IMG/VR virus record: IMGVR_UViG_3300027983_000080
Location: 1 to 29,208 of that record
Strand: one strand, 5' to 3'
DNA length: 29,208 bases
From: a virus
Under the pieces are notes generated by a model. The model was not told where the DNA came from and ran no database searches. It was given only the letters and a program-made list of their open reading frames with translations. This document shows, piece after piece, positions 134-28,824 of the stretch. The translations under genes and the position numbers were made by a program. Each line of letters starts with the position of its first letter. Position 1 is the stretch's first letter.

Positions 134-361
134 TTAAGCTCCCTTCTCTGTTAGCTGTTCGTATAAGTCACACAAGTCGCTGTGAACCTTTTTTAAATCT
201 TTTAGGTTAAATGTATCACATGCCCGATTGAACCTCGTATCAAGCTGCTTATCGATGCTGTGAAGGTCTACCTTCGATAGTTCCTCTATGCCGTTTAATA
301 TGACTAAGCATAGGCAGCGAGTTATTTTAACTTTATCGTGGTTTGTGCGTTTAGCTTTCAT
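134..361 (-). CDS. Small hypothetical phage protein (75 aa)
   Basis: A 75-residue basic protein beginning MKAKRTNHDKVKITRCLC. It is predicted helical, with two cysteines near residues 16-18 and a C-terminal stretch rich in Leu, Asp and Lys. Its ATG overlaps the stop of the upstream gene by four bases (ATGA), which indicates translational coupling. No family is recognised. Position in the leftward operon suggests an early or accessory function such as host interaction, but this is inference only. Confidence 0.65.
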   Translation of the reverse strand: MKAKRTNHDKVKITRCLCLVILNGIEELSKVDLHSIDKQLDTRFNRACDTFNLKDLKKVHSDLCDLYEQLTEKGA

Positions 362-735
362 GCTTTTCCTTTCCGGTAAACTTTACCAGTTAACTGATAG
401 TATTCATTTTTAAGTTGCCCTATGTCTGCTGGTTTACCTTCAATTAACTCCCTGAACTCTTTAACCTCTTCTTCGTATGAAGTGCACCACGATAAGTGCA
501 TAGGTTCGTAGGTTATTGATAAACGCGTTGGTTCGTAGGCTAGTATTGCCGCTTTATTTGCTTCAACGTTACCTTCATGTATCTGGTGCCCTACGCGTAT
601 TATTTCACGCATAAATTCTACGTCTATATTCTTATGCTCGGCTATCTTCTCAACTGTTAGATAGTCATTTCTGTATTCTAGATACAGTGATTGAAGTATT
701 TTGTTTAGCTCTGGCACGTTAGTCAGTTTGTACAT
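358..735 (-). CDS. Hypothetical phage protein with helix-turn-helix-like N-terminal part (125 aa)
   Basis: The chosen start is the ATG at 735-733 (MYKLTNVPEL), because AGAGGA lies six bases upstream; an in-frame ATG at 774 has no ribosome site and overlaps the previous gene. Residues about 22-45 (YRNDYLTVEKIAEHKNIDVE) look like a small helix-turn-helix, with 'YLTVEKIAEH' resembling the first helix and turn seen in many short phage proteins. The C-terminal third is acidic then basic. A DNA-binding role is possible but unproven; no specific family is assigned. It is coupled by ATGA overlap to the next gene downstream. Confidence 0.6.
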   Translation of the reverse strand: MYKLTNVPELNKILQSLYLEYRNDYLTVEKIAEHKNIDVEFMREIIRVGHQIHEGNVEANKAAILAYEPTRLSITYEPMHLSWCTSYEEEVKEFRELIEGKPADIGQLKNEYYQLTGKVYRKGKA

Positions 736-748
736 GCTATCCTCTTTT

Positions 749-1000
749 TTAAAATGGTCTATCGTCTGGGTCAAAAGTTGGCTGCATTTTTAGTGCTTCG
801 TCTGCTATCTCTTCATAAACTCCAAACTTCTCTTTGTGCCACTTAGCACGCCTATTGTTATCTATTTTATGGATAACTTTTAACGTCTTCGCTAACGCTA
901 GATAGTCAGTGTCAGGTTCGCTTAATACTTGTGCTACATGCGCGTCTAAAATGTCTTGGATAATTTCAAGCTCTTTGCTTGATAGTGCTTTAATTTTCAT
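749..1000 (-). CDS. Small hypothetical phage protein (83 aa)
   Basis: Start taken as the ATG at 1000-998 (MKIKALSSKELEIIQ), preceded by AGAGGATAAT. The longer in-frame start at 1048 would run through the small membrane peptide gene and has no ribosome site. The protein is mostly helical and charged and ends in a Pro/Asp-rich tail (FDPDDRPF). The upstream peptide gene ends TAA only one base before this ATG (TAATATG), so translation is probably coupled. No homology is recognised. Confidence 0.6.
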   Translation of the reverse strand: MKIKALSSKELEIIQDILDAHVAQVLSEPDTDYLALAKTLKVIHKIDNNRRAKWHKEKFGVYEEIADEALKMQPTFDPDDRPF

Positions 1001-1001
1001 A

Positions 1002-1082
1002 TTATCCTCTCTTAAGTAATTTGATTGATAAAACTGCAAAGCATACAAGCAATGCGGTAATGTTAAAAAGTTCTGCGCTCAT
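1002..1082 (-). CDS. Tiny predicted single-span membrane peptide (26 aa)
   Basis: Reading the - strand from ATG at 1082-1080 gives MSAELFNITALLVCFAVLSI followed by KLLKRG and a TAA stop at 1004-1002. Residues 5-20 are a continuous hydrophobic segment and the last six are basic, as in a small inner-membrane peptide with the basic end in the cytoplasm. A strong Shine-Dalgarno (AAGGAAG) sits seven bases before the ATG, and the gene exactly fills the gap between the 280-aa gene and the 83-aa gene. Function unknown; phage peptides of this type include inhibitors of host membrane processes and small lysis proteins. Confidence 0.6.
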   Translation of the reverse strand: MSAELFNITALLVCFAVLSIKLLKRG

Positions 1083-1083
1083 G

Positions 1084-1926
1084 TTAGACTTCCTTTGATT
1101 TAATGAATGTTAATAATTGTTTAGCTGAGTACATGGCATTTTCAGTGTGCTTGCGTACCCACGAAGTAGTTTTAGGTGAATACTTAAAACCATTGCGCTT
1201 AATTGCTTCAATGATCTCTTTGCTTGGCTTCTCATCGTGGTGGACTATAACTCGGTCGTTATCTATGAATATTTTGCCGCCTATGAATGTCATGTCTTCA
1301 AAGTCTGATTTTACTTCTATGCGGTTTTTCATAGTTTCTAGTTTCTTGTTACGCTCTCTGATCTTAGTGGTCAATGAGGTAACTTTATATGATGGAAGTG
1401 ACCCGTTACCCCACTCAAGGTCAGTGTGCATACGTAGAGTGTATAGGTTATTTGCCTTAAGCCATTCAACACGCGCCTCTGGTGTCTTGAGCTTGTTTAC
1501 CAACTTGTACATGTCGCGTCTGATCTCAAGGCGCTCAATTTCCTCTAACGTCTTATCTATTTCTGCTTCGGGGCTTAGGGTGCGCTCTCTGGTGGCTGCA
1601 TTGATATACTTTTTACGCCAATGATCGAAGTCGCTTAATGCTCTGTCTCTGCTATCCCATGCCTTGCCATTTCTGCGGTTGTTGAAGTTCGCTGGGCCTG
1701 TAATCATGGGACTTGCGCACCGTGATTGTCGGGCAAAAATAAGCATTACGCGCTGGCAATACTTGGCTTCGTAGTTTCCTGTAGAACCGTTTGCATCCAT
1801 GAGAGTTTTAAGGTCGTCTGATAGTTGACTGTCATAGTGGTTAAAGTCTGCCTCACCACGTTTCTCTGGGCTAAATGATGTCCACCCGTAGGATTGAATC
1901 ATGATTTGTTTGTTGAGTGTGCTCAT
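1084..1926 (-). CDS. Conserved-looking phage protein with 'GPANF' and 'NGFKYSP' motifs (280 aa)
   Basis: The largest gene of the leftward operon. It starts at an ATG preceded by AAAGGATACA. Residues 68-89 contain SRCASPMITGPANFNNRRNG and residues 245-261 contain NGFKYSPKTTSWVRKHT. From memory, both motif types occur together in uncharacterised phage and plasmid proteins; the C-terminal motif resembles the 'GF+(W/Y)SP...W.R.LT' ending of mobile-element proteins. The centre (115-205) is rich in Lys, Glu and Arg and probably coiled coil. I infer a nucleic-acid or replication-associated role, but no catalytic residues are identifiable. Confidence 0.7.
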   Translation of the reverse strand: MSTLNKQIMIQSYGWTSFSPEKRGEADFNHYDSQLSDDLKTLMDANGSTGNYEAKYCQRVMLIFARQSRCASPMITGPANFNNRRNGKAWDSRDRALSDFDHWRKKYINAATRERTLSPEAEIDKTLEEIERLEIRRDMYKLVNKLKTPEARVEWLKANNLYTLRMHTDLEWGNGSLPSYKVTSLTTKIRERNKKLETMKNRIEVKSDFEDMTFIGGKIFIDNDRVIVHHDEKPSKEIIEAIKRNGFKYSPKTTSWVRKHTENAMYSAKQLLTFIKSKEV

Positions 1927-1952
1927 ATTGTATCCTTTGTTTTGGTGGTTTT

Positions 1953-2252
1953 TTAGTATGTTTCTAGTGTAGGAAATTTCTTATTGAGCTTTAACGCTCC
2001 AACTTCGATTATCTCCTCAATGTAAAAGCTTAAGGTTTCACTGTCTGAAACTTTTAGCTCTAGCCTATCGTCAAATATAAATGGTGTACCGTAGTTTACT
2101 ATTATGTCCTTTAATGCTTGTTCGTAGCTTGTGGCGGTGAACTCGCCTATCTGATTAAAACTGTGGTTAGCGCGTCCACCACTTATAGAAGTGTGCTCCT
2201 CCCCAGTTACGGCAAAGTCAATCATTTGCATTACTGTGATTTTAAGTTCCAT
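1953..2252 (-). CDS. Hypothetical phage protein (99 aa)
   Basis: An acidic 99-residue protein, MELKITVMQMIDFAVTGEEH onward, preceded by an AAAGGGTACATT ribosome site. It mixes predicted beta strands (FIFDDRLELKVSD) with a C-terminal helix, a small globular fold. No family is recognised. It lies 27 bases from the next gene downstream and 29 bases from the one upstream, with the same leader style (TTTGTTAATTAA, then a GGGTA-type site) as its neighbours, so it is part of the same transcript. Confidence 0.6.
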   Translation of the reverse strand: MELKITVMQMIDFAVTGEEHTSISGGRANHSFNQIGEFTATSYEQALKDIIVNYGTPFIFDDRLELKVSDSETLSFYIEEIIEVGALKLNKKFPTLETY

Positions 2253-2281
2253 AATGTACCCTTTGTTAATTAACTAATTTA

Positions 2282-2737
2282 TTAATCTGCTTTCGATAGA
2301 AATGCTTGGATTGCTTTATAAGTGTGCTTGATACCCAGTACTTTGCAGGTGTTTTTAATCGATAGGTTATCTTTGTCAAAGTTATCCTGCGCAATTGCTA
2401 CGCACATAAGGTTAAAAGTATTCGCTAGGCTTGTACCGTTTTTATAGGCTTCATACTTATCCGCATACTGAGATTCTAGCTCGCAAAAGAATACGTCTGC
2501 GAATCGTTCGAATTGCACTTCGTTAATATGCGCCAATCGAGTCATGCGGTACTCTTCGCTTCCTCCAATTGACTTTTTATTAGTTAGTAGTGCGTATGCT
2601 TCAAAGTCTTCGGCTGCGGCTTTTACGTTAGCTGTGAATTGCTCACTAGCTCCTAGTGTATTGCATACAAGATCAAGTGAGGTGGCTTGCGTGGTAAACT
2701 GGGTATGCCCGTAGATTGTTATTACGTAGAGTTTCAT
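2282..2737 (-). CDS. Hypothetical phage protein (151 aa)
   Basis: Begins MKLYVITIYGHTQFTTQATS, preceded by AAAGGATATAAA. The first 15 residues look like a beta strand opening a small alpha/beta domain. The rest is helical with several Asn, Asp and Lys-rich turns and an Ala/Phe-rich middle. No known motif is seen. The leader is nearly identical to those of the genes at 2760-3146 and 3148-3348, suggesting duplicated leader sequences or shared translational control within the operon. Confidence 0.6.
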   Translation of the reverse strand: MKLYVITIYGHTQFTTQATSLDLVCNTLGASEQFTANVKAAAEDFEAYALLTNKKSIGGSEEYRMTRLAHINEVQFERFADVFFCELESQYADKYEAYKNGTSLANTFNLMCVAIAQDNFDKDNLSIKNTCKVLGIKHTYKAIQAFLSKAD

Positions 2738-2759
2738 TTTATATCCTTTGTTTATTTGT

Positions 2760-3146
2760 TTATTTAACTATTGCCGCATCAATTGACCGAATAACTTTGC
2801 CAGTTTCCATTGTGTACTCGCCTACGCTTATACATGCTTTATTTTTAAGCATGATGACCACTGATGAAAGGGAGTAGAAACAATCTTTTGAAGCGTTTTC
2901 TGGCCATATCTCTATCGATTGAATGTCATTAATTAGAGGTGCGAGTCTGTCACTTATATAAATTGAATTGTACTGGAAGTTTTTACCGTACATGACTGTA
3001 GCTTTAAAGGGTGCTTCGATAGCTCCTATAAATTCGTTCCATGTAACATCTTTACCGCTTATTTTGTGCCTTTCGGTATATCCAAGGGAAATACTGCCAT
3101 CTTGCATTACGTGAATTGTTTTTAGGTTTTTAGTCTTGATCTTCAT
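2760..3146 (-). CDS. Hypothetical phage protein (128 aa)
   Basis: Begins MKIKTKNLKTIHVMQDGSIS, with a GAGGATATAAA ribosome site formed by the last codons of the upstream gene (stop TAA, one base, then ATG), so translation is tightly coupled. Alternating hydrophobic and polar residues predict a beta-rich fold with few charged clusters. No family is recognised. Confidence 0.6.
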   Translation of the reverse strand: MKIKTKNLKTIHVMQDGSISLGYTERHKISGKDVTWNEFIGAIEAPFKATVMYGKNFQYNSIYISDRLAPLINDIQSIEIWPENASKDCFYSLSSVVIMLKNKACISVGEYTMETGKVIRSIDAAIVK

Positions 3147-3147
3147 T

Positions 3148-3348
3148 TTATATCCTCATTCTTATAGTTTCTGTAGTTACATTAGGCAGCTCAAGGTGAA
3201 ACATATCTAAGCCTGTAAACGTTCTACATATGTACTCGCCTGCGTGCGTGTACCAAGTCATACCGTTAAAAGTTTCAATGTCGCCTGACAGAATCATCTC
3301 TTTGGTCAGAGCTTTAACTTCGTTTAAGTTGTGTGCTGTATTTTTCAT
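3148..3348 (-). CDS. Small hypothetical phage protein (66 aa)
   Basis: Begins MKNTAHNLNEVKALTKEMIL, preceded by AAAGGGGTATAAA. The N-terminal half is helical; the second half (MTWYTHAGEYICRTFTGLDM) looks like beta strands. The last codons supply the ribosome site for the next gene. No known domain. An antisense frame of similar size on the + strand has no ribosome site and is disregarded. Confidence 0.55.
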   Translation of the reverse strand: MKNTAHNLNEVKALTKEMILSGDIETFNGMTWYTHAGEYICRTFTGLDMFHLELPNVTTETIRMRI

Positions 3349-3363
3349 TTTATACCCCTTTGT

Positions 3364-3648
3364 TTATTTGCTTATTCTTTTAGCTAGTTTTAGTTCACGT
3401 TTAGATTGTTTTGCAGCGTCGATAAGATGACGCTCGTATTGTTTATGCTGAATTTCGATGCGCTTTTGAGCGTCCAGTGAGTCGGCTTCCATGCGCTTGT
3501 ATTGCTCATTTAATAACTCTTCACGATGAGGCATATAGTCCACGTTATCAATGCCCACGCAGTGAGGGTGCGCAAGGATAGCGTCCAGCTTGCTAGTGTT
3601 CATCTTAGACCAGTTTGTACCGCGCTTGTGTCTGATGTTCTTGCTCAT
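3364..3648 (-). CDS. Small basic coiled-coil hypothetical protein (94 aa)
   Basis: Begins MSKNIRHKRGTNWSKMNTSK. From about residue 40 to the end the sequence is a continuous charged helix (EELLNEQYKRMEADSLDAQK and on), consistent with a short coiled coil. The ribosome site (AGGCGA) is weaker than those of its neighbours. The spacer upstream (3660-3680) carries tandem TTAAG pentamers. The lysine-rich tail could bind nucleic acid; this is inference. Confidence 0.55.
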   Translation of the reverse strand: MSKNIRHKRGTNWSKMNTSKLDAILAHPHCVGIDNVDYMPHREELLNEQYKRMEADSLDAQKRIEIQHKQYERHLIDAAKQSKRELKLAKRISK

Positions 3649-3699
3649 GGGTCGCCTATTAGTTAAGTTAAGTTAAGTAAATGGTTTGTAGGTTACTAT

Positions 3700-3921
3700 T
3701 TAGACTAGGCTATTTTTAAGGAACTCTTCTGACCTAGCTATTTCAGCTATGCAAGCCATTAATTCAGCTTTAGTAATAGTTACATGTAAATCTCGCCCTT
3801 CAATGTCAGTGTTTATGGCCACGATAACTGATAGCGCACTGCGACTAATTACTTGCATACCACTATCTGCGAGTGTCCTGACATGCCTACGGATGGACTT
3901 GTTCACTGTTTGAATTTTCAT
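3700..3921 (-). CDS. Small phage protein, paralogue of the next gene (73 aa)
   Basis: Begins MKIQTVNKSIRRHVRTLADS, preceded by AGAGGACCTATAAA. It aligns along its whole length with the product of 3923-4123: both start MK(I/V), have a basic first 20 residues, a Ser-rich strand in the middle, then a '(K/R)DL.(I/V)T(F/I)T+.EL' strand-helix ending. The shared layout suggests one small alpha/beta fold produced by tandem duplication. Function unknown. As the second gene after the promoter it should be expressed early and strongly. Confidence 0.6.
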   Translation of the reverse strand: MKIQTVNKSIRRHVRTLADSGMQVISRSALSVIVAINTDIEGRDLHVTITKAELMACIAEIARSEEFLKNSLV

Positions 3922-3922
3922 T

Positions 3923-4123
3923 TTATAGGTCCTCTAGGTTAATTAATACTTTAAGTGCTTCTTCTAGTTCAAGCCTAGTGAAAGTAATGAGTAAATCTTT
4001 CCCTGCTCCGATAGTGGGTACTGATAGGGTGACCGTAGTAGCACTGCTTTCTATTATCCTTGACGGGCTATTGGCTATCAGTTTGGTCCTTTCTCGTTCG
4101 CGGGTTCTAGTTATAACTTTCAT
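3923..4123 (-). CDS. Small phage protein, first gene of the leftward operon (66 aa)
   Basis: Start taken at ATG 4123-4121 (MKVITRTRERERTKLIANSP) because AAGGAC lies seven bases upstream, and because the longer in-frame start at 4204 would lie inside the -35 box of the promoter at 4176-4204. The first 15 residues are strongly basic. Residues about 46-58 (GKDLLITFTRLELEE) match the equivalent part of the neighbouring paralogue. The 5' leader after the promoter is about 45 bases. Early expression is expected; function unknown. Confidence 0.6.
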   Translation of the reverse strand: MKVITRTRERERTKLIANSPSRIIESSATTVTLSVPTIGAGKDLLITFTRLELEEALKVLINLEDL

Positions 4124-4175
4124 TTGTTGGTCCTTGTTGGTGTAGTTTGCGGTGCATTTTATATGCTTGACATGT

Positions 4176-4204
4176 ATAATATCAGTTGGTGAAATAGCTG
4201 TCAA
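4176..4204 (-). promoter_or_regulatory. Strong sigma70-like promoter for the leftward operon, with flanking operator-like motifs
   Basis: On the - strand, TTGACA (4204-4199) and TATTAT (4181-4176) are separated by exactly 17 bases: a perfect -35 and a 5/6 -10 at ideal spacing. The -35 box lies within a TGTCAAGG motif (4199-4206), and the inverted form GCTTGACA lies just past the expected start point at 4165-4172. Both resemble the TGTCAAGC repeats further right, so they may be operators. The promoter reads into all - strand genes. Confidence 0.75.
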
Positions 4205-4795
4205 GGCTTATTCCCGAAATAACTAAATCGCGTTTAAGGGATGAAATTTTTACAGTAAATAGGGGTAAATAGTTTACATGCGGCATGTTAGTGAAAAAGT
4301 GGTTCCTGTTATCCATGCTTTAGGTAGGGTAAAATGGTACCATGTCGATTGTTTAAATATTAAAAAATAATAGTGGTGCTTAATAAGCTAATAAGGAAGT
4401 TGATTTATATATATCCACAGGTCTTTTACACACGTAACGGGGTTAGGGCACTTAACTAGTTGATATCTGTATAGTACGTATATTCCAGCAAACTTCCACC
4501 GCTAACTCCCTGTAATCTCATTCGAAGTCATTGACAGCGAAACGCGAAAGCCCGTCAAGTCCTGTCAAGCCCTACAAGCGGTCCATTTTCAGCCTATACC
4601 TTGTCAAGCATGCTATCCTGAAAGCCTCGCCTCGGCAATCCTGCGAGGTCGTTATTTGCATTGCACTGCATAATATCAACTCTCCAAGCCCATTTCCATC
4701 AAAGCTCCTGTAAGCCCGTGAGCGCGTCCCACTAACCTAGAGGTAGGTACACAAGCACTGCACCGTAAAACTACCACCTAGTCAATCCTGCGCAG
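4205..4795. other. Non-coding regulatory region, left part
   Basis: No frame here has a convincing ribosome site or protein-like composition. Visible items are TGTCAAGC motifs at 4563-4570 and 4602-4609 plus a near match CGTCAAGT at 4553-4560; a hairpin CCTCGC/GCGAGG (4625-4630 with 4643-4648); a 10-bp direct repeat CAATCCTGCG at 4636 and 4783; and GTACGTATATTCC at about 4474, similar to the core of the 21-bp repeats near 5010. Composition differs from the genes on both sides. I infer a control or origin region. Confidence 0.5.
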
Positions 4796-4911
4796 CCTGT
4801 GAACCTGTGAACCTGTGAACCTGTGAACCTGTGAACCTGTGAACCTGTGAACCTGTGAACCTGTGAACCTGTGAACCTGTGAACCTGTGAACCTGTGAAC
4901 CTGTGAACCTG
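4796..4911. repeat. Tandem octamer array, about 14.5 copies of ACCTGTGA
   Basis: A perfect 8-bp period runs through 116 bp with no visible mismatch, bounded by GCAG on the left and GCTCCAG on the right. Such homogeneous arrays expand and contract by slippage, so copy number may vary between isolates or reflect assembly choices. Because three octamers make 24 bp, one - strand frame is open as an eight-residue peptide repeat, but nothing suggests it is translated. The array lies between scattered and clustered TGTCAAGC sites. Confidence 0.9.
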
Positions 4912-5063: not shown

Positions 5064-5076
5064 CTGGAGAGGCGGT

Positions 5077-5130
5077 CCCCCCTTTTGCCGCACGCGCAGG
5101 GGGGTATACTCCCACCCCCCTTTAAATTTT
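5077..5130 (+). terminator. Competing hairpins resembling an attenuator / intrinsic terminator
   Basis: GGGGGGT (5099-5105) can pair with ACCCCCC (5114-5120), leaving an 8-base loop and followed by TTTAAATTTT, the form of an intrinsic terminator. The same G run can instead pair with CCCCCC at 5077-5082. The two pairings exclude each other, as in terminator/antiterminator switches. Transcription from upstream (possibly the 21-bp repeats) would meet it before reaching the RNA gene and terminase. A purely insulating terminator is the simpler alternative. Confidence 0.5.
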
Positions 5131-5286
5131 TGGCTATTTAAAATACTGCCAAACAGGGTACTTCCATAAATTTTTGGCTATTTAAAATACTGCCAAACAG
5201 GGTACTTCCCTAAACTTGTTAAAAATTTTTGGCTATTTAAAATACTTGTTAAACAGGGTACTTCCCTAAACTTGTTAAAAATTTTT
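5124..5286. repeat. Three AT-rich direct repeats with internal dyad (about 42 bp units)
   Basis: Units begin near 5124, 5168 and 5223. Each has AAATTTTTGGC, the core CTATTTAAAATACT and the ending AAACAGGGTACTTCC. Units 1 and 2 contain a perfect inverted repeat TTTGGC-N13-GCCAAA (5129-5153 and 5173-5197); unit 3 has lost the right arm (TTGTT instead of GCC). A second repeat, CCCTAAACTTGTTAAAAATT, occurs at about 5208 and 5264. The dyads look like protein-binding sites and the A+T richness would suit DNA unwinding beside an iteron cluster. Confidence 0.8.
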
Positions 5287-5304
5287 ACCGCCCATAATTT
5301 TTAC

Positions 5305-5334
5305 TTGACTATGTTTTAACACTTGAAATAAGCT
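5305..5334 (+). promoter_or_regulatory. Possible promoter for the structured RNA (weak)
   Basis: TTGACT (5305-5310) is a 5/6 match to a -35 box. At 18 bp spacing TAAGCT (5329-5334) matches only three of six -10 positions. An alternative, TTGTTA (5272-5277), 17 bp, TAATTT (5295-5300), is equally weak. TTGACT also overlaps an inverted TGTCAAG-like motif. Some start in this region seems required for the RNA and terminase genes. Confidence 0.3.
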
Positions 5335-5591
5335 GAACATGATTTCAAGGGGAATACCTTCTAGCTAAACTCGTAAGAGAGTTCTGATCGAAAGATCGTG
5401 GGCATACAAAACGAGAGGCGAAAAGGATGTATAACTGGACCATGTGTAGATAACCCTAAGGGCACATGCACCGACCTGATGGTGAACAATCAGCCTTGCA
5501 AGTGGGCGACTGGATCGGGGAACACTTGCACCTTAAAGTCTCTTACCTTATACCTCCGTGCAGGCAGTAGTATACAGTAAGAGGCTTTTTT
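5322..5591 (+). ncRNA. Uncharacterised structured non-coding RNA, about 250-270 nt, ending in an intrinsic terminator
   Basis: A chain of hairpins can be drawn by eye: CTTGAAAT/ATTTCAAG (5322-5329 with 5342-5349); AACTC/GAGTT (5368-5372 with 5379-5383); GATC-GAAA-GATC, a GNRA tetraloop (5386-5397); CATGTG/CACATG (5441-5446 with 5463-5468) enclosing CCC/GGG; CTGAT/ATCAG (5476-5480 with 5489-5493); TGCAAGTG/CACTTGCA (5497-5504 with 5523-5530); and the terminator stem GTCTCTTAC/GTAAGAGGC (5538-5546 with 5577-5585) followed by six T. The terminator loop contains ACCTCC, complementary to a Shine-Dalgarno. No match to tmRNA, RNase P, SRP, tRNA or group I intron signatures was seen. A 60-codon GTG frame here is not credible. 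Confidence 0.6.
5538..5591 (+). terminator. Rho-independent terminator of the structured RNA
   Basis: A nine-pair stem (one G-U) joins 5538-5546 and 5577-5585, with a further TATAC/GTATA stem inside (5549-5553 with 5570-5574), followed directly by TTTTTT (5586-5591) and more T-rich sequence. This would end the RNA about 150 bases before the small terminase gene, so read-through or a separate start is needed for late expression. Confidence 0.75.
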
Positions 5592-5605
5592 ATCTTTTAA
5601 ATTCA

Positions 5606-5706
5606 GTTTGGCCAGATTCGTCTATCGGAGTACTAATCTACTAATAAACCGTAGGGCAGTGTGTGAGCTTCAGTAGACGGGCTTGGTCACTTTACACCAA
5701 ACCTCC
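5606..5706 (+). promoter_or_regulatory. Structured leader element upstream of the small terminase gene
   Basis: 5609-5624 pairs with 5674-5689 in a 16-position helix with a single A-C mismatch (several G-U pairs, which suggests selection on RNA rather than DNA). Closing alternatives GTTTGG/CCAAAC (5606-5611 with 5697-5702) and TTGGT/ACCAA also exist. The 49-base internal loop holds smaller stems. The end reads CCAAACCTCCACCA, but no tRNA cloverleaf can be folded. It could be a second small RNA, an mRNA leader controlling terS, or a processed RNA. Confidence 0.5.
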
Positions 5707-5741
5707 ACCAATTCTAATTACTTGATTACTCAAACTATCCC

Positions 5742-6338
5742 ATGATACCATTTAGTATGGAATATGATCTGGTAGAATCCCCTAACATTACTGATCTTAT
5801 CGAAGACAGTTTAAGGCCTACGTTAAACGCTAACCCTAAGCTGCGTAAGTTCGTACGCGCATACGAAGGCGACTTGGTGTACGCCCTCAGGATCGCAGGG
5901 TATCACGGTACAGACATTTCACTACAAGCAAAAGGCATGGAGCTACTCAAGCGCCCAGACATTAAGCAAGCAATACTCAATCAAGTAGCTAAAACAGATA
6001 AACGAGAAGCAAACCTACTAACTAAAATAGACAGAATGGAATTTTTAGCATCGGTAGTGCGAAACTCAGACCCATTTGAGCGCCCAGTTAAAGACGACTA
6101 TGGACAAGAAGTAGCTCCCGAGCCTACAACCATGGCACTGCGCCTCAAAGCCCTAGACATGTACAACAAAATGGAAGGCGACTACCACACAAACGTACAC
6201 GTAAATCATGAAGTCAATATTACCGATTTAATACTATCCTCCTATACAGACGTTACTAGGCCCATAGAAGCCATAGAAGCAGATTATACCTCTACAGACG
6301 ACACACCCATACCTAAATTAGAAACATTAGGACTATAA
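5742..6338 (+). CDS. terS: Terminase small subunit (198 aa)
   Basis: The DNA-recognition subunit of the packaging motor, which selects viral DNA for the large subunit. Residues 39-75 have the helix-turn-helix layout common to small terminases: G43, A48, AGY (52-54), then the helix with ELL+RP.I at 67-75. The middle (93-115) carries the 'RMEFLASVVRN' helix and the rest is a charged tail ending in Thr/Asp-rich sequence. Length is typical. It lies directly before the large terminase. The start is uncertain: neither this ATG nor the one at 5757 has a Shine-Dalgarno, and an in-frame stop at 5715 blocks longer starts. Assignment rests on position and the motif. Confidence 0.8.
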   Translation: MIPFSMEYDLVESPNITDLIEDSLRPTLNANPKLRKFVRAYEGDLVYALRIAGYHGTDISLQAKGMELLKRPDIKQAILNQVAKTDKREANLLTKIDRMEFLASVVRNSDPFERPVKDDYGQEVAPEPTTMALRLKALDMYNKMEGDYHTNVHVNHEVNITDLILSSYTDVTRPIEAIEADYTSTDDTPIPKLETLGL

Positions 6339-6340
6339 CT

Positions 6341-8077
6341 TTGAACAATCCTAACGACATATTTGACCTACTACTGGCACCTAGAGTAATACCTACTCCT
6401 ACAGAAGTAACATCGAACGTATTAGTATTTGAACCAAAGTATGCAGAAGTACCAAAGCAGTCTTCACTCAATGAAAAGTTTAACTCAGCAGCGCCACTTA
6501 AAATATCAATAGCAGAAAAACTTAGACTATGGCGACTAAGGTACAGATACTTCTTCGAAGAAGTATTAGACATGGAGTTAGACGACTGGCAGGTAGACTT
6601 TGTAGAGAGCTTTTTAAAGAATGAACGTACAGTGGCCATTGCATCAAAAGGCGTAGGTAAAACTAAGCTACTAGCAGGATGCGCACTGTACATGCTAGTG
6701 CTATACCATGAACCTAAACTTGCAGTAATGTCAGTAACTAAAGATCACTTACGAGATAACTTATGGGCAGAAATACTTAAGTTTATAGAAAAGTCTCCAT
6801 TCTTAAAGTCGATATTAGATAAGAGTGCTACACGGATTAGCTTTAAAGGGTCTGACGTAGCGTTCATTGCATCAAGATCAATACCTAAAGGGTCTAACGA
6901 AGAAGATATGAAGTCTGCTCTGGCCGGACTTCACGCTAACCACGTAGCGTTTTTTGTAGATGAAGCTGGGTCTATGCCTGATTCACTATGGGATACTGCA
7001 GATGCAATCCTAGCGAATGAAGATTTACACCCGACTATACCAAAGTTCGCTAGGATACTTGCATGTGCAAACGCAGAGATGCCTAGAGGACTATTCTATC
7101 GGGTATACACTTCAAATATTGCAGGTAACAAGTCCGTAGAAGCAATGCAGTGGAACATGATAAATATCAGTTCTGACCCACTAGACCCTAAACGCTCAAA
7201 GCGAGTATCAAAAGCTTGGGCACAAGGGGTAATTGATAAATACGGTGGACGAGATCACCCAGTAGTAAAAATTAACGTACTAGGGATATACCCAGATACT
7301 TCACAGGAGCTATTCCTATCGGAGTGGGAAATTGATGAAGCAATGCGGCGCAGTTATGACGACCACTTAGTAGCTCACCATGAACCTTCCATGGGGGTAG
7401 ACGTTTCTAGGGGTGGAGATGATACGATAATAGTCACCCGTAAAGGGCTTAAAGTGTACCCATTTGTCCAAGTTAAGCCGGGTGCCGATGGGCATGAAGT
7501 AGGACGGGCAGTAAAACGTGAGGCCTTTGCACGTAGAGTAAACAGGGTAAAAGTAGATGGAACTGGAGGCTACGGGCTATCAGTAGTAGATTATTTAAAA
7601 GCAGAAGGGTCCCTAGACGTAATATCTATTATATACAACCGAACTGCGACTAGACCCGAAAGCTTTAATAACATACGTACAGAAATGTACTGCAAAATGA
7701 GGGACTGGATTAGAGCAGGTGGGGCTCTACCTATGGACCCTATGCTCAAAGAAGACCTACTTGCACCAAAGCTAAACATCAGAGGTTCAAGGTTTGAGCT
7801 AGAGCCTAAAGAAGAAATACGCAAACGACTTGGACGCTCACCAGATAGGGCAGATGCACTAGCACAGACATTTGCAGAAATGAATACTCTCGAAGAAGGT
7901 ACGTTAGATACTGCCCAAGACCCTGATACTTATGATGAAGAGGGCAACATTAGACCGCTAGACGAAAGGATTTTACTAAGAACTCTTAGGATGCGACAAT
8001 CTAGCAGTAATGAGGGTAATCATAAATCTAATGACACAAATGCTAGACATAATGTAAACTCTAAACATCTATCTTAA
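6341..8077 (+). CDS. terL: Terminase large subunit, ATPase and nuclease (578 aa)
   Basis: The motor that pumps DNA into the prohead and cuts the concatemer. Walker A is ASKGVGKTKL (residues 101-110); Walker B is VAFFVDEAG (202-210, with D207 and E208); a coupling-motif region follows around 240-245 (LACANA). The RNase H-like nuclease has acidic residues in MGVDVSRGGDD (D354), KVDGTGGYG (D406) and SPDRADALAQT (D502, D505). All expected catalytic elements are present, so it should be functional. It starts at TTG, three bases after terS, with only a weak AGGA upstream; no ATG fits. The C-terminal 60 residues are low-complexity and may contact the portal. Confidence 0.95.
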   Translation: MNNPNDIFDLLLAPRVIPTPTEVTSNVLVFEPKYAEVPKQSSLNEKFNSAAPLKISIAEKLRLWRLRYRYFFEEVLDMELDDWQVDFVESFLKNERTVAIASKGVGKTKLLAGCALYMLVLYHEPKLAVMSVTKDHLRDNLWAEILKFIEKSPFLKSILDKSATRISFKGSDVAFIASRSIPKGSNEEDMKSALAGLHANHVAFFVDEAGSMPDSLWDTADAILANEDLHPTIPKFARILACANAEMPRGLFYRVYTSNIAGNKSVEAMQWNMINISSDPLDPKRSKRVSKAWAQGVIDKYGGRDHPVVKINVLGIYPDTSQELFLSEWEIDEAMRRSYDDHLVAHHEPSMGVDVSRGGDDTIIVTRKGLKVYPFVQVKPGADGHEVGRAVKREAFARRVNRVKVDGTGGYGLSVVDYLKAEGSLDVISIIYNRTATRPESFNNIRTEMYCKMRDWIRAGGALPMDPMLKEDLLAPKLNIRGSRFELEPKEEIRKRLGRSPDRADALAQTFAEMNTLEEGTLDTAQDPDTYDEEGNIRPLDERILLRTLRMRQSSSNEGNHKSNDTNARHNVNSKHLS

Positions 8078-14771: not shown

Positions 14772-17700
14772 ATGTCAGGAGAAGCCCAACAGCTATCATT
14801 CATACAAGGGGAAATTTCCCCAGAGTTCTACTACCGAAGTGACCTAGCTAGTTTTAATAGTTCCGTTTCAAAAGCTTCCAATGTTAGACTAGGCCCATTA
14901 GGAGGGCTATCAAATAGAAACGGCAGTAGGGTAGAAATGTTACCTGCTTCTGCAGCAGCTATAGTAACCAATCTTAAAAGTTCAAATGACTATGTAGCTT
15001 GTGTTTTCCAGCACTATATAACTAAGGCTATATTTAAACTTGAAGTATTCAACAACAACGGGGTAGTAAAAATATACTGCAACGGAGAACTGGATACCGA
15101 GATATACGGCCCACTGGCAACTCCAGTAACTATGAACATAGCCGGAGATATACTTACAGGCATTAAAGGGCTTCACTTTGTACTTCATAATGACCTAATA
15201 ATATTTTCTAAAACCCTCCCTATAAGGTATGCCAATGCTGATATAGAAGGGTCCGAACAGTACGTACTTCCTGCAGGAGGAGCTTTCTCGTATACGGAAA
15301 CTCAGTTTTGCTTACGTATGATACCTCCTACTGGTGGAGTTGGTAGTAAGGCAAATGGGTTACAATTAGAATCTAACTTCACCCTTCAAAATGCTTCTAA
15401 CTTAGCAGTACCGTATACGACTAGTGTGCAGTCTACTTATACAGGAACGATAACAGGTAACGCTTCATACGCACTGGTAGCTGAAACTAATGACGGGGTA
15501 GACATATCCCTTTATATTTTAAATACGCTTGTCGGGGCCAACATGCCCGTATTACCAACAGCTACCATAACAGGAGTTATCCCATACCCGAATAGTACCG
15601 TTACTAATCTTTTAAATTTTAGCAGCATAAGTAACGCAATTTTAGCTTTCGGAGGGAAGACCGTATCTAAGTTAAAAGTGTATCGGGCGACAGGTAAGCA
15701 TGTCGCGTACAATGGCCTATATAAGCTAGTAGCAAAGTTTGGAGTAGACGGGGCATCACTGTTAACGGTAACTGATAAAGGTCAAGATGAAGCGGCGTAC
15801 ACAGTTTGTAGTGACACTTCTGCCTTGTACAAACAACCGTCTTTCTCGACTCTTTCTAATACCCCTATGGTGAATATACTAACTGGTGGACTTAAGACGG
15901 TAGTTGATACCGCAGTATTCCAACAGAGAGCGTACTACGCGATAAATAAAGGTCTATGGTGGGGAACTAGCGTATACAACAATACCATTGTAGCTTCGAG
16001 AGTAGGGTCACTAAGTCAAGTGCTGTACCCTCAAATATCTAACCCAGCAGATGCTTTTCAATTTAGTGTACCTGAAGATAAAGGTGGGTTCCTCACTCAC
16101 CTTGCCAGCTTGTCTAGGCTTGTGGCCTTTACTAATACTTCCACCTTTGTAATACAAGGGGATGATGCTGGGATTATAACGCCCACTTCAATTAACCCGT
16201 ATAAAGTATTGTCCTTTGGTTGCATGGAAGGAGTGCCTCCTGCAGTATCAGGAGAGACTTGTGTATTTGCCGCTTCAGGTGGTGGGGTAGGATACCTTAG
16301 CATAACTGCTTACGGGTCCATAGTAGCAGGTAATGCTTCTGCTCTTGCAGGACACATGTTTGAAAACAAAACAATTCTTTCGATAGTACCTTTGAGGGAC
16401 CGCAAAGCCCTGCCTGTATTTTTAATAAATACTACTGAAGGTGACGTATACGAGTGCTATAAAGTGGGCGAGTTTTTTGCGTTCTTTAGAGTTAATATGC
16501 TAGGGCTTCCTTCTAATGGTAAAATCACTGACGGGGGTATTTTCCCGTCAACTCAGATTATGTCTCCTGCATACTCTGGGTATTCTTTCGGAGCCGAAGT
16601 ATATATTAACTACCGTATGTTAAACACTGACACACTTAATAGTTATGTTAATTCGGTGGCCATGATACCGGAGCCTTTAGTAAGTACTAAGTACTTAGAC
16701 TTTAGTAGTATATTAGATTATTCAACGGGAGTAGGGACTATCCCTATCTACTACGAGTACCCCTATGAGGTAGACGTAGATACCTTTATTACAGGGTGGT
16801 ACACATTTAATAACTATACTGTTAGGTCATTGGTAGAACCTTATAACGTCAACTCATTTTTAACTCAACTTAATGACCCTACAAGCAACTGGCTTCCTAA
16901 TACTACTATTCAAGTTACTGCAGGAAGCTTGCCGCTAAACTTAGACAGTATAAACCCAGTTACTAAAGGTACTCTGTACATGAAGTTCACTTGGCTTGAG
17001 GGTGGCGAGTTGAAAACTTCTTATGCTGAGTTAGTGCGTGGTACGGCAATAGATGCGTTTCACTTTAACTACACTTTTGAGTTTAGTGAGATAGTACCTA
17101 CCTACCTACGGACTAGTGATATTCTATTTAGTCCTTTACCTACGGTGAACAGAGAGAGCATTATGGTTCAAGGCATGGCTATAGCAGAAATTGCTTTCAC
17201 CACTTCATTGATACCATCAAGCTCCGCAGCGTACGCCAGTCTTAGGGGTTACTGCGACATGATGGGGTACTACGTAAATGGGCTAGGCACTATGCTGGCA
17301 CCAATAGAAATTCCTATAACTATCGAAGTCAATGGCAATATTTACGGTAACTACAAAGACCCTAGCGAGACTATTACAGTAACGCTTAAGCACTACTATG
17401 ACACACCGACTTCAAATACTGAGGTTATAAGTGGGCTAGGCAACTTCTTCGAAATAACTTTACCTGAAGCTTGTAGCTGGTTTGTAATGGGAGCCCCTGC
17501 AATTGGTGAGATTGAAACTCTCCCAGTAGCCTCAATTGAGCAGGACATAACTGATACTAAGAAAAACATAGATTACACTTCAGTTCTTTTGTACAAAACT
17601 AAAGGGCTTAGAGTGGGAGAGGTAGGTCAACCTGATACTGAGCTGGAGAGGTTTGACTTTACTACCGAAGACTCAGTAAGTGACCCCGTAGAGTTCTCGG

Positions 17701-23400: not shown

Positions 23401-26400
23401 CAGTGGCAGCGGTAGAAGGCTGGACATACTCAGGAGAGTATCATCAAGCACTTGACCCTACTGACGAAGTGGGACACGTATTTCACGGCATGTATTCGGT
23501 TAATCAGGAAATTGATAAGACTATTGTCCCAATGTTTAACTTCAACTATTTCCCTGTTGAAATCCTTGGCAAGGGTGGGCAGTTAATTATTAATAAACTT
23601 ATTGAAGCCAAGCACACTGCTATCGCTAAAGTATTTGCCAAGATGTACGCGGATTCAATTAATGCCAGACACTTGATAAATACGCCTGAAGCGATTGCTA
23701 AGATGAACAAGAGACTATCTGCAGTCTACGCTTCTACCTACGCTGGTGGAATAGTCATGCAGCTTAATGCTTTAGGGCTTAAAGTTACTGAAGCCATGTC
23801 TAAAGACTTAAGTGCTATTCAAGAGTTGCTTAATAGAAATGCTATCGATAAGGCAGAGTACACAGGTGAGGCAACTACTGACGACATTATAACTTTAACT
23901 GAAGCTGAGTCTGACCCTAGTGACTCTGCTGAAGCTATCATTAGTAGAATGGTTGAAACCTTTACCGGGACTAAGGTAGAAGTATATACGGAAGCCTTGG
24001 AGTCTTTAGGTTATGTGACTGACGATAAGGTTAAGCAAGCATCAGAAGACATGCTTGCTAAAAGTCTACCTGCTATTCTCAATGACCAATTCACCCAGAT
24101 AGTAGCTGCCTTTCCTGTAGAAGCTAAACAGCTTTTTGCCGCATACATTAAGAGTGGCAAGGTATCTTCGAGAGTGGTCAATAAGCAAGTAGCCGTAGCT
24201 GCTGGAGTAGCTATCAATAAAATGCCCGCAAATAAGTTAAGTCTAAAGGGTGCTATTGCGGAAGTACGAACCTCAAATACTGCAGTAGTAAATTTATTCA
24301 ACCAAGGAAAGTACCTTGAAGCTTTAGCGACCAAGTTTGATGGGCTAGTTAAGTCTGGGATAATGGACCGTATTTCTGATATTATGGTTAAAGTTGCTGC
24401 TGCTAAAAAGGCGATAGAGACTTTCAGTTCAGTTAAATACATGTCATCAAAAGAAAATGCAGGTAAGGTCCACCCTGAAACGATGGCCTTTCTAAGAGAT
24501 GTACTTTTCAAAATAGATAATAAAATACCAGTAATTTTTACCAACATTGATTCATTAGACCCTGACTTAAATATGTTCACAGAAATGCTAACTGAAGACA
24601 TGTTGGCGAATATTGCAGGGAAGGAACTAGGCTCTGTCGAGGTAACTCTGGAGCTTGGAGACTACGCTAGAGTAATGGCCAAAGTAGCTGCTCACGGGAT
24701 CAAGCTTGAAAAGGAAGCGCAAGCCTTCTTAGCTACTACCCAAGTTCAGAAGATGAAAGGTGAAGTACTTAAGTCTACAAAAGTTTGGGATGTACGTAGC
24801 TGGCTCCCACAAGTCAACTCCGTACATGGAATATTTAGCGCGTTTTATACTAGTCAAGAGGCGTACCACAGGTCCTTCGTATTCAAAAAGATATATGCTA
24901 TTGAGCAAGGTGAAGCTAAGGCGACTAATGGGGCCAATGAGATTGGGATTAGAATTAAGAAGATGGCAGCAAAATCACTATCAAGAAAATTTGAACCCAC
25001 TACACTTACTCGTACAGGCATTATCGTTAATACCCGTGACCAGCTTATAAGCGTACTTATGCACCTAGGTTCAACATCAGGTAGAGATACCCTGCTTAGA
25101 ACGCATGGAGCAGTTACGGTAGACCCTAATACGGGCACTGACATCCTTATGGAGTCAGAGCTTATGGAAGATTTAAACGACATGTTTAGTCAAGGGGTAA
25201 TTAACGCTGACGATATTAAGCTGGCCAATGATTTATGGAAAGAATTTCCACTACTGCTTGGTATGCTTAAAGAGGTATACCGTAGAGACAAAGGCGTAGC
25301 AGTAGGGGAAATTGTTGCAGTACCATACGATATTGGAGGATTAACTTTAGACGGTGGCTACTGGCCACTATCTACCGACGAAGTAATTCCAGTAGGTGCA
25401 AATTCAGTTAAATTTTTACAGAAAGTATTTGGTGGATCACTTAACTTCGGAAGAACTAAAGAACGTGGAAGCGGTAAAAAAGAACCACTTAAACTAGGCT
25501 TAGGCCCAATGTCTTCTTACGTTAACTACGTAATGAGGGACTACCATATCAAACCACCAATGGCGTTATTCAATGCCTTTATCAATGATACTGAAGTCAG
25601 GGAGCACTTAGTAAATACTAGGCCCGGAGCACTTGAAAATCCTAGTCGCATAGGAAACAACTCTTATGAGACAGGTATCATTGGCGACTGGATCAAAGAC
25701 GTAGATGGGCAGATACGCAGTGACGTAGACCCTAACACGGACAAGCTACTAAACTGGCTAGTCACTAATACTGCAGTAGTTTTTTATTCTATGGATGCAC
25801 TGGCAGCAGTGACCAACCTTGTCTCAGGACTACCCGCTGCGCTACCGTACACTGCAAGCAAGTCAAGACTTACGATGAACGCAGCTTTATGGTTCTTTAA
25901 AAAAGGGACTTTTAACGAGCGTATGCAGCTATCTGAACAGATGAAAGCTAACGAAAAAAGCTTTGTTCAGTACTTTGCAAACACTAATACGGAAGACTTG
26001 TATAGCCAAAAGACTAAGACTAAAGAATTTGTAGATAAAGTTTCAATGACTGCCATGCGAATGTCACAGCATATCCTCGAAAGCATTGTCTGGAATACGG
26101 AGTTTGAATCTCAATCCGCTAAGGGGGTGCCACAAGAAGCTGCAGTAATTAAAGCTGATGCAGTAACGCGGGACACCATAGGAAGTTACTCAATATCCAA
26201 TAGGGCGATAGGGCAGAAAGGCGGGACACTAGGTAGACTACGCAACATGGCAACTATGCACTTGTTTAAGTTTAAAGCATCACTTAACCTAGAAATGAAT
26301 AGGGACGGTGCAACATCTCGCAAGGCCTACATGTCAACAATGCTTATAGGTTCGGCGCTATTATCAACTAAGATCGCCATGGAACTATACGACATGGAGA

Positions 26401-28155: not shown

Positions 28156-28161
28156 TTGATA

Positions 28162-28824
28162 ATGGGTATTAATCTAGTCACAAATTTTTCAGTAGGTGTG
28201 CCTTCACCGCTTGATGACCGTGACGTTGTTGCCGACATAGCTGCCCGTGATGCTATTGCTGCTGGAGTTCGGTATCCGGGTATGGGTGTTCACGTAATTG
28301 ATTCAGATGGCTTTGGTCTTGTAAAGAACTACCAACTAGTCGGAGGCATAACTAATAGTGATTGGGATGAGTTTGCTGGTGGAGGTTCAGGTGGGATATC
28401 TGAATGGGTGGATGCAACGGTCTACGCTCTAGATGCTCAGGTAGTTTTCGAAAACAGTATTTACAAGTGTACTACTGCCCATACTTCAAGTGCTGCCTTC
28501 ATTACTGACATAGCTAATTGGACCAAGATATTATCTTATGACACAGTAGTTACTTCGGTAGTAGGAGATAGGACGGCAGATTACAGTGACGATGTTCTAT
28601 TAGTAGATTGTTCAGCGTTCAATGTTACTATCACAATAACGCTACCTGCGGCAGTAGACGCTAAGAAAATTTTAACCATTAAGAGAATAGATAATACTGC
28701 TTACGATGTAATTATCATTAGGGTAGGGGCAGACCTCATCGACGGTCAAACATCAATAACACTTTTCAGACAGTACGACTCTATTCGGTTAGTAGGTACG
28801 TCAACACTTTGGAGCGTAATATGA
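28162..28824 (+). CDS. Fibre-associated protein with carbohydrate-binding-module-like domain (220 aa)
   Basis: ATG at 28162 is preferred over the TTG at 28156 (AAAGG lies nine bases upstream). Residues 15-75 (DDRDVVADIAARDAIAAGVR ... DWDEF) are a segment common at the start of phage fibre proteins. Residues 81-122 resemble the chitin-binding CBM5/12 fold: W82, 'ATVYALDAQVVFENSIYKCT' and 'ITDIANWTKI', with aromatics at positions typical for sugar stacking. The C-terminal third (VTITITLPAAVDAKKILTIK; LIDGQTSITLF; STLWSVI) is the beta-rich pattern frequent in phage tail proteins. Probably surface or receptor binding. Its stop overlaps the next ATG (ATGA). Confidence 0.7.
   Translation: MGINLVTNFSVGVPSPLDDRDVVADIAARDAIAAGVRYPGMGVHVIDSDGFGLVKNYQLVGGITNSDWDEFAGGGSGGISEWVDATVYALDAQVVFENSIYKCTTAHTSSAAFITDIANWTKILSYDTVVTSVVGDRTADYSDDVLLVDCSAFNVTITITLPAAVDAKKILTIKRIDNTAYDVIIIRVGADLIDGQTSITLFRQYDSIRLVGTSTLWSVI

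Follow-up and report, generated by a model that had tools for sequence, protein, structure and literature searches.

We consider the region at 5322-5591 of the analysed DNA to be an autonomous non-coding RNA gene, most likely specifying a trans-acting accessory small RNA, with a probability of about 0.5. The DNA, hereafter the window, comprises 29,208 bases and is a virus record of IMG/VR with unproven ends. A non-coding gap of 1.5 kb separates its two gene arms, and the RNA segment lies inside this gap (Table 1). The phage is a tailed phage with an ordinary TerS/TerL pair of terminase genes. Searches of prokaryote genomes gave TerL matches of only 36-38% and did not identify the host. Downstream of the tail genes, at 28156-28824, a protein with a CBM_5_12 carbohydrate-binding module (E 5e-6) is encoded. 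A reading made from the sequence alone (hereafter the sequence-only reading) had placed the RNA immediately upstream of the terminase: it is indeed upstream of terS, but its end is separated from the gene by 150 nt and hence does not adjoin it.

Table 1. Features of the window considered in this analysis (positions are those of the window)
Feature	Position	Strand	Evidence or remark
Leftward genes	134-4204	-	primase recognisable among them
Predicted sigma70-type promoter of the RNA unit	5305..5334	+	TTGACT 5305-5310, 18-nt spacer, TAAGCT 5329-5334; start ~5341
Perfect 8-bp inverted repeat CTTGAAAT/ATTTCAAG	5322..5349	+	stem count; spans -10 and +1
Predicted non-coding RNA, ~250 nt	5341..5591	+	hairpin excess, fold z -2.18, no coding or family match
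GATC-GAAA-GATC stem, GNRA tetraloop	5386..5397	+	sequence, fold
Hairpin CATGTG...CACATG, 6 bp perfect, inner CCC-TAA-GGG	5441..5468	+	fold, stem count
Possible H-type pseudoknot CACC-GAC-CTGAT-GGTG-AACA-ATCAG	5469..5493	+	weak
Perfect 8-bp stem TGCAAGTG/CACTTGCA, 18-nt loop	5497..5530	+	fold, stem count
Intrinsic terminator	5537..5592 (about)	+	imperfect stem 5537-5586, -18.6 kcal/mol, into T-run
Second promoter-like site, before terS	5691..5718	+	TTTACA-N16-TCTAAT, 10/12, p 0.025 alone
Rightward gene arm	from 5742	+	terS, terL, head-tail adaptor (portal), epsilon15-type major head protein, tail genes
Terminase small subunit (terS)	5742..6338	+	PHROG 51, E 2e-5; downstream neighbour of the RNA segment
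Terminase large subunit (terL)	6341..8077	+	PHROG 2, E 4e-31

The sequence-only reading had found in the region neither a credible protein nor the signature of a known RNA, and both claims hold. The only open reading frame of at least 60 aa in the segment starts with GTG (5398-5580) and extends into the terminator; it has no Pfam match and no recognisable ribosome-binding site. A possible 8-codon leader-peptide frame (MYNWTMCR) is found at 5427. Neither ARAGORN nor Rfam detected a tRNA or a tmRNA in the segment, and the covariance models of Rfam 15, used with both gathering and relaxed thresholds, matched no family in it, which supports the absence of a known family. Blastn of the RNA against phages and against plasmids gave nothing relevant, and no antisense target of the RNA within the window was better than chance. 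Exact 18-mers of the RNA core were found in IMG/VR only in a near-identical contig and in one G+C-rich contig (L106); the similarity of the latter is limited to the 18-mer, so that we took it as chance and rejected it as a homologue.

Perfect non-overlapping stems of at least 5 bp number 7 in 5322-5591, compared with 2.57 after dinucleotide shuffling (p 0.002), in agreement with the seven or more successive hairpins of the sequence-only reading, and stems of at least 8 bp are 2 (5322-5349 and 5497-5530), against 0.03 expected. The GATC-GAAA-GATC tetraloop stem that had been pointed out is also present in the sequence. The region had been called highly structured, and this stands in that real hairpins cluster here, but the term overstates the energy evidence, since the z-score of the fold energy against shuffles is a modest -2.45, it drops to -1.26 once the terminator is removed (p 0.10, not significant), and in a scan in 200-nt steps of width several stretches within genes of the same phage have far more extreme values. 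Unusually stable folds are predicted in coding sequence at 16501-16700 (z -4.75) and at 25501-25700 (z -4.28). We considered the possible pseudoknot as weak because an equally good one occurs in 7.7% of the shuffles; a similar weak pseudoknot was seen, by eye only, in one of the related phages (L004, see below). As concerns the first inverted repeat, it may be a DNA operator, or the first hairpin of the RNA if transcription starts further up. Since it overlaps the -10 and the predicted +1, this hairpin may be outside the RNA.

An intrinsic terminator at the 3' end is a generic mark of phage small RNAs, and one is found here, as the sequence-only reading had claimed, with an imperfect stem. No other terminator on the + strand of the window is as strong as this one (5537-5591); by chance, one strand of 29 kb should contain 0.2 stems that reach -16 or better and have a T-run behind them.

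The relatives used for the comparison were taken from IMG/VR, and their contigs may be fragments. The members of the clade are L002 (99%) and the two phages L003 and L004 (~84% TerL identity); about ten further relatives have an identity of 40-46%. Over the RNA core L002 does not differ from the window, so that the RNA is represented by one effective sequence and L002 is uninformative on covariation. The flanks of the segment align in the window, L003 and L004, and comprise a G+C-rich element together with an AT-rich block whose last letters are CTTGACT.

This alignment includes the TTGACT-N18 site of the predicted upstream promoter (window 5305, L003 4615, L004 4186), which sits behind the shared AT-rich block, and the similarity ends near the RNA start. 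The -10 at the aligned site is TAAGCT in the window, TATGCT in L003 and AATAAA in L004, the one of the window being weak (3/6). The promoter-like site before terS recurs in 6 of 7 relatives (L003 4811, L004 4844, L019 2086, L020 5782, L022 6142, L025 1977), with a combined p of 1e-5 over the eight phages; none was found in L018 in the same scan. Its spacer is 16 nt in the window and mostly 18 nt in the relatives, and its distance from the first gene is 18-29 nt in L003, L019, L020, L022 and L025 and 88 nt in L004. We assigned promoters by consensus matches backed by their position in the relatives; the starts are predicted, not measured. The order of the elements in the window is hence promoter, RNA, terminator, promoter and terS, which makes a separate RNA unit more likely than a late leader.

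The RNA segment itself is lineage-specific. Neither blastn nor MAFFT gave a trustworthy alignment of it to L003 or L004, and a covariance model of the window lineage found no homologue in 632 kb of relatives, nor in L003 and L004 with the filters off. At this slot L003 has a different and very stable non-coding segment (z about -5) with a 19-bp hairpin. In that phage, CCGTCCTAAGGT, which we presumed to resemble part of 23S rRNA, was dropped as such because Rfam gave no support. L004 has a longer non-coding segment without folding excess (z +0.5 to +1.3), followed by a tRNA-Pro (TGG, 4765-4842), the only Rfam match that we obtained, located between that segment and csrA. Since only 2 nt separate this tRNA from the start of the csrA promoter, the slot of L004 also holds an RNA-only unit. 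The gene csrA (PF02599) lies between the slot and terS, directly before the latter, in L003 (5157-5393), L004 (4962-5210) and L022 (6200-6403); its leader is common to L003 and L004 (82% over 95 nt), with a CGTCCTRAGC-like core also in L022. No csrA was found in the window record. Among phage genomes, csrA has been reported in 30 of 2517 (PMC7366521). In the distant relatives L019, L020 and L025 terS is directly behind its promoter and there is no room for such an RNA, which is therefore an addition. The cargo of the slot in the close relatives is thus different non-coding sequence, a tRNA or csrA, and the RNA of the window is probably genuine but confined to the lineage of this phage.

The G+C-rich element of the flank, CCCCCTTTTG...GGGGGGTATA-CCCACCCCC, is at 5074-5265 of the window and is followed by AT-rich sequence and by three 44-nt direct repeats. 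The eight closest loci (TerL 41-99%) have it ahead of terS, and the same pattern did not find it in L025 or in more distant loci. It may be a cos site or a packaging site of another kind. The intergenic sequence of the window further contains the 8-mer CCTGTGAA in about 14 tandem copies, at 4796-4907, and L002 has them too; in L022 dense short tandem repeats (ggctatgag.., gccaccaa..) are found at 5240-5800, upstream of the packaging-site-like element.

A different reading of the same elements is a cis-acting leader of the late operon, in which the RNA and its terminator would attenuate transcription from a constitutive promoter towards terS unless an antiterminator (a protein, a ligand or a put-like RNA) acts. 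The order of promoter, structured leader, strong terminator and packaging genes is the same as in lambda pR'-6S RNA-tR'. However, a promoter-like site follows the terminator; a clear terminator is missing at the equivalent place in both L003 and L004; L019, L020 and L025 drive terS straight from a promoter with a short leader; and among the window proteins scanned and 20 proteins from the genome of L003, none could be recognised as an antiterminator. The RNA switch controlling late transcription that had been proposed from the sequence is made less likely by the late promoter-like site past the terminator and by the relatives lacking an equivalent terminator. Since the late site of the window matches at 10/12 with a p of only 0.025, the leader model keeps a place as a tentative alternative, possible but on the unlikely side. 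It is doubtful, and we would not expect it, that there is no functional RNA at all, so that the region would be a terminator insulating two units, an untranslated spacer with chance hairpins and the operator dyad at 5322-5349. The loss of significance of the fold energy without the terminator, the wholesale replacement of the sequence in 84%-related phages and the lack of folding excess in L004 speak for this; the significant excess in stems of 5 bp or more, the presence of another 8-bp stem apart from the dyad, and a 250-nt spacer kept behind a promoter with its own terminator, which would be unusual, speak against it.

Two more specific functions appear very improbable. The sequence-only reading had mentioned a packaging cofactor, and an RNA analogous to the pRNA of phi29 would fit the position beside the terminase genes and the candidate packaging site, its one point in favour. 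The terminase pair is ordinary, though, and phages with an 84%-identical TerL have unrelated sequence at this place; as a part of the packaging motor should be conserved with the motor, the cofactor is not supported. A CsrB/RsmZ-like sponge for CsrA came into consideration because csrA adjoins the slot before terS in three of the relatives. We rejected it, and consider it scarcely credible, since GGA is neither enriched nor loop-exposed: its counts are at or below random (window 5 vs 4.9, L003 2 vs 1.7, L004 3 vs 6.2), the window RNA has one ANGGA only and most of its GGA are outside open loops, and the window itself lacks the gene.

We return to the separate RNA gene. Among the roles previously suggested, a trans-acting RNA is the leading one, since a promoter and a terminator of its own appear to delimit the unit and terS appears to have a promoter-like site of its own downstream. 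Precisely, the host sigma70 RNA polymerase would start at TTGACT-N18-TAAGCT, at about 5341, would make an RNA of ~250 nt with several short hairpins and would stop at the intrinsic terminator at about 5591, while the terS/late operon would be started separately at 5691-5718. The RNA would occupy the slot between the conserved packaging-site-like element and the late operon, and would act in trans, its targets being RNAs or proteins of the host or of the phage. Such an accessory role would be in keeping with an autonomous unit in a fast-turnover slot that elsewhere holds a tRNA and csrA. What speaks against this explanation is the weak -10, the 16-nt spacer of the terS site, the missing folding excess in L004, the missing clear terminator in L003 and L004, the fold energy that loses significance once the terminator is removed, and the search within the window that gave no antisense target beyond chance. 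It is decidedly improbable, in our opinion, that the segment belongs to a hitherto undescribed class of structured phage RNAs, whose core may be pseudoknotted, with a dedicated RNA slot between the packaging site and the late operon and a diversification so fast that the relatives share the promoter only, which an arms race with the host would lead one to expect. If transcribed, the RNA would be one more orphan structured small RNA, of which few are known, from phages of uncultivated hosts. The slot, from the candidate packaging site to the terS promoter, is where this clade appears to keep RNA genes, a tRNA and csrA, and a survey of it could look for RNA-based functions in host takeover or anti-defence.

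As for known systems, lambda pR'-6S-tR' has promoter, short leader RNA and intrinsic terminator ahead of the late/packaging genes. The window resembles it in this order and differs from it in having a second promoter-like site past the terminator, in its relatives without terminator and in that no Q-like protein was recognised in the protein sets scanned. StxS originates ahead of late genes, as does the lambda 6S leader. In T4, the RNAs C and D are stable phage RNAs of unknown function in the tRNA region; the likeness, drawn from their description and not from sequence, is to the tRNA-Pro at the slot in L004, whereas the window has no tRNA. With CsrB/RsmZ the window RNA shares several hairpins, a terminator at the end and a csrA neighbour in the relatives, but not an enrichment of loop-exposed GGA. 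The pRNA of phi29 is similarly near packaging genes, but the window phage has another type of terminase and its RNA is not conserved with it. The coliphage and prophage small RNAs StxS, AsxR, IsrK and DicF (reviewed in PMC12197685) are, as is the window RNA, short non-coding phage RNAs ending at an intrinsic terminator; no sequence match to them was found, and the window RNA is longer than StxS, which is 74 nt in length (PMC12197685). Since other phage small RNAs have been described that target transcripts of the host or of the phage (PMC12197685), the kind is already known and only this member of it is new.
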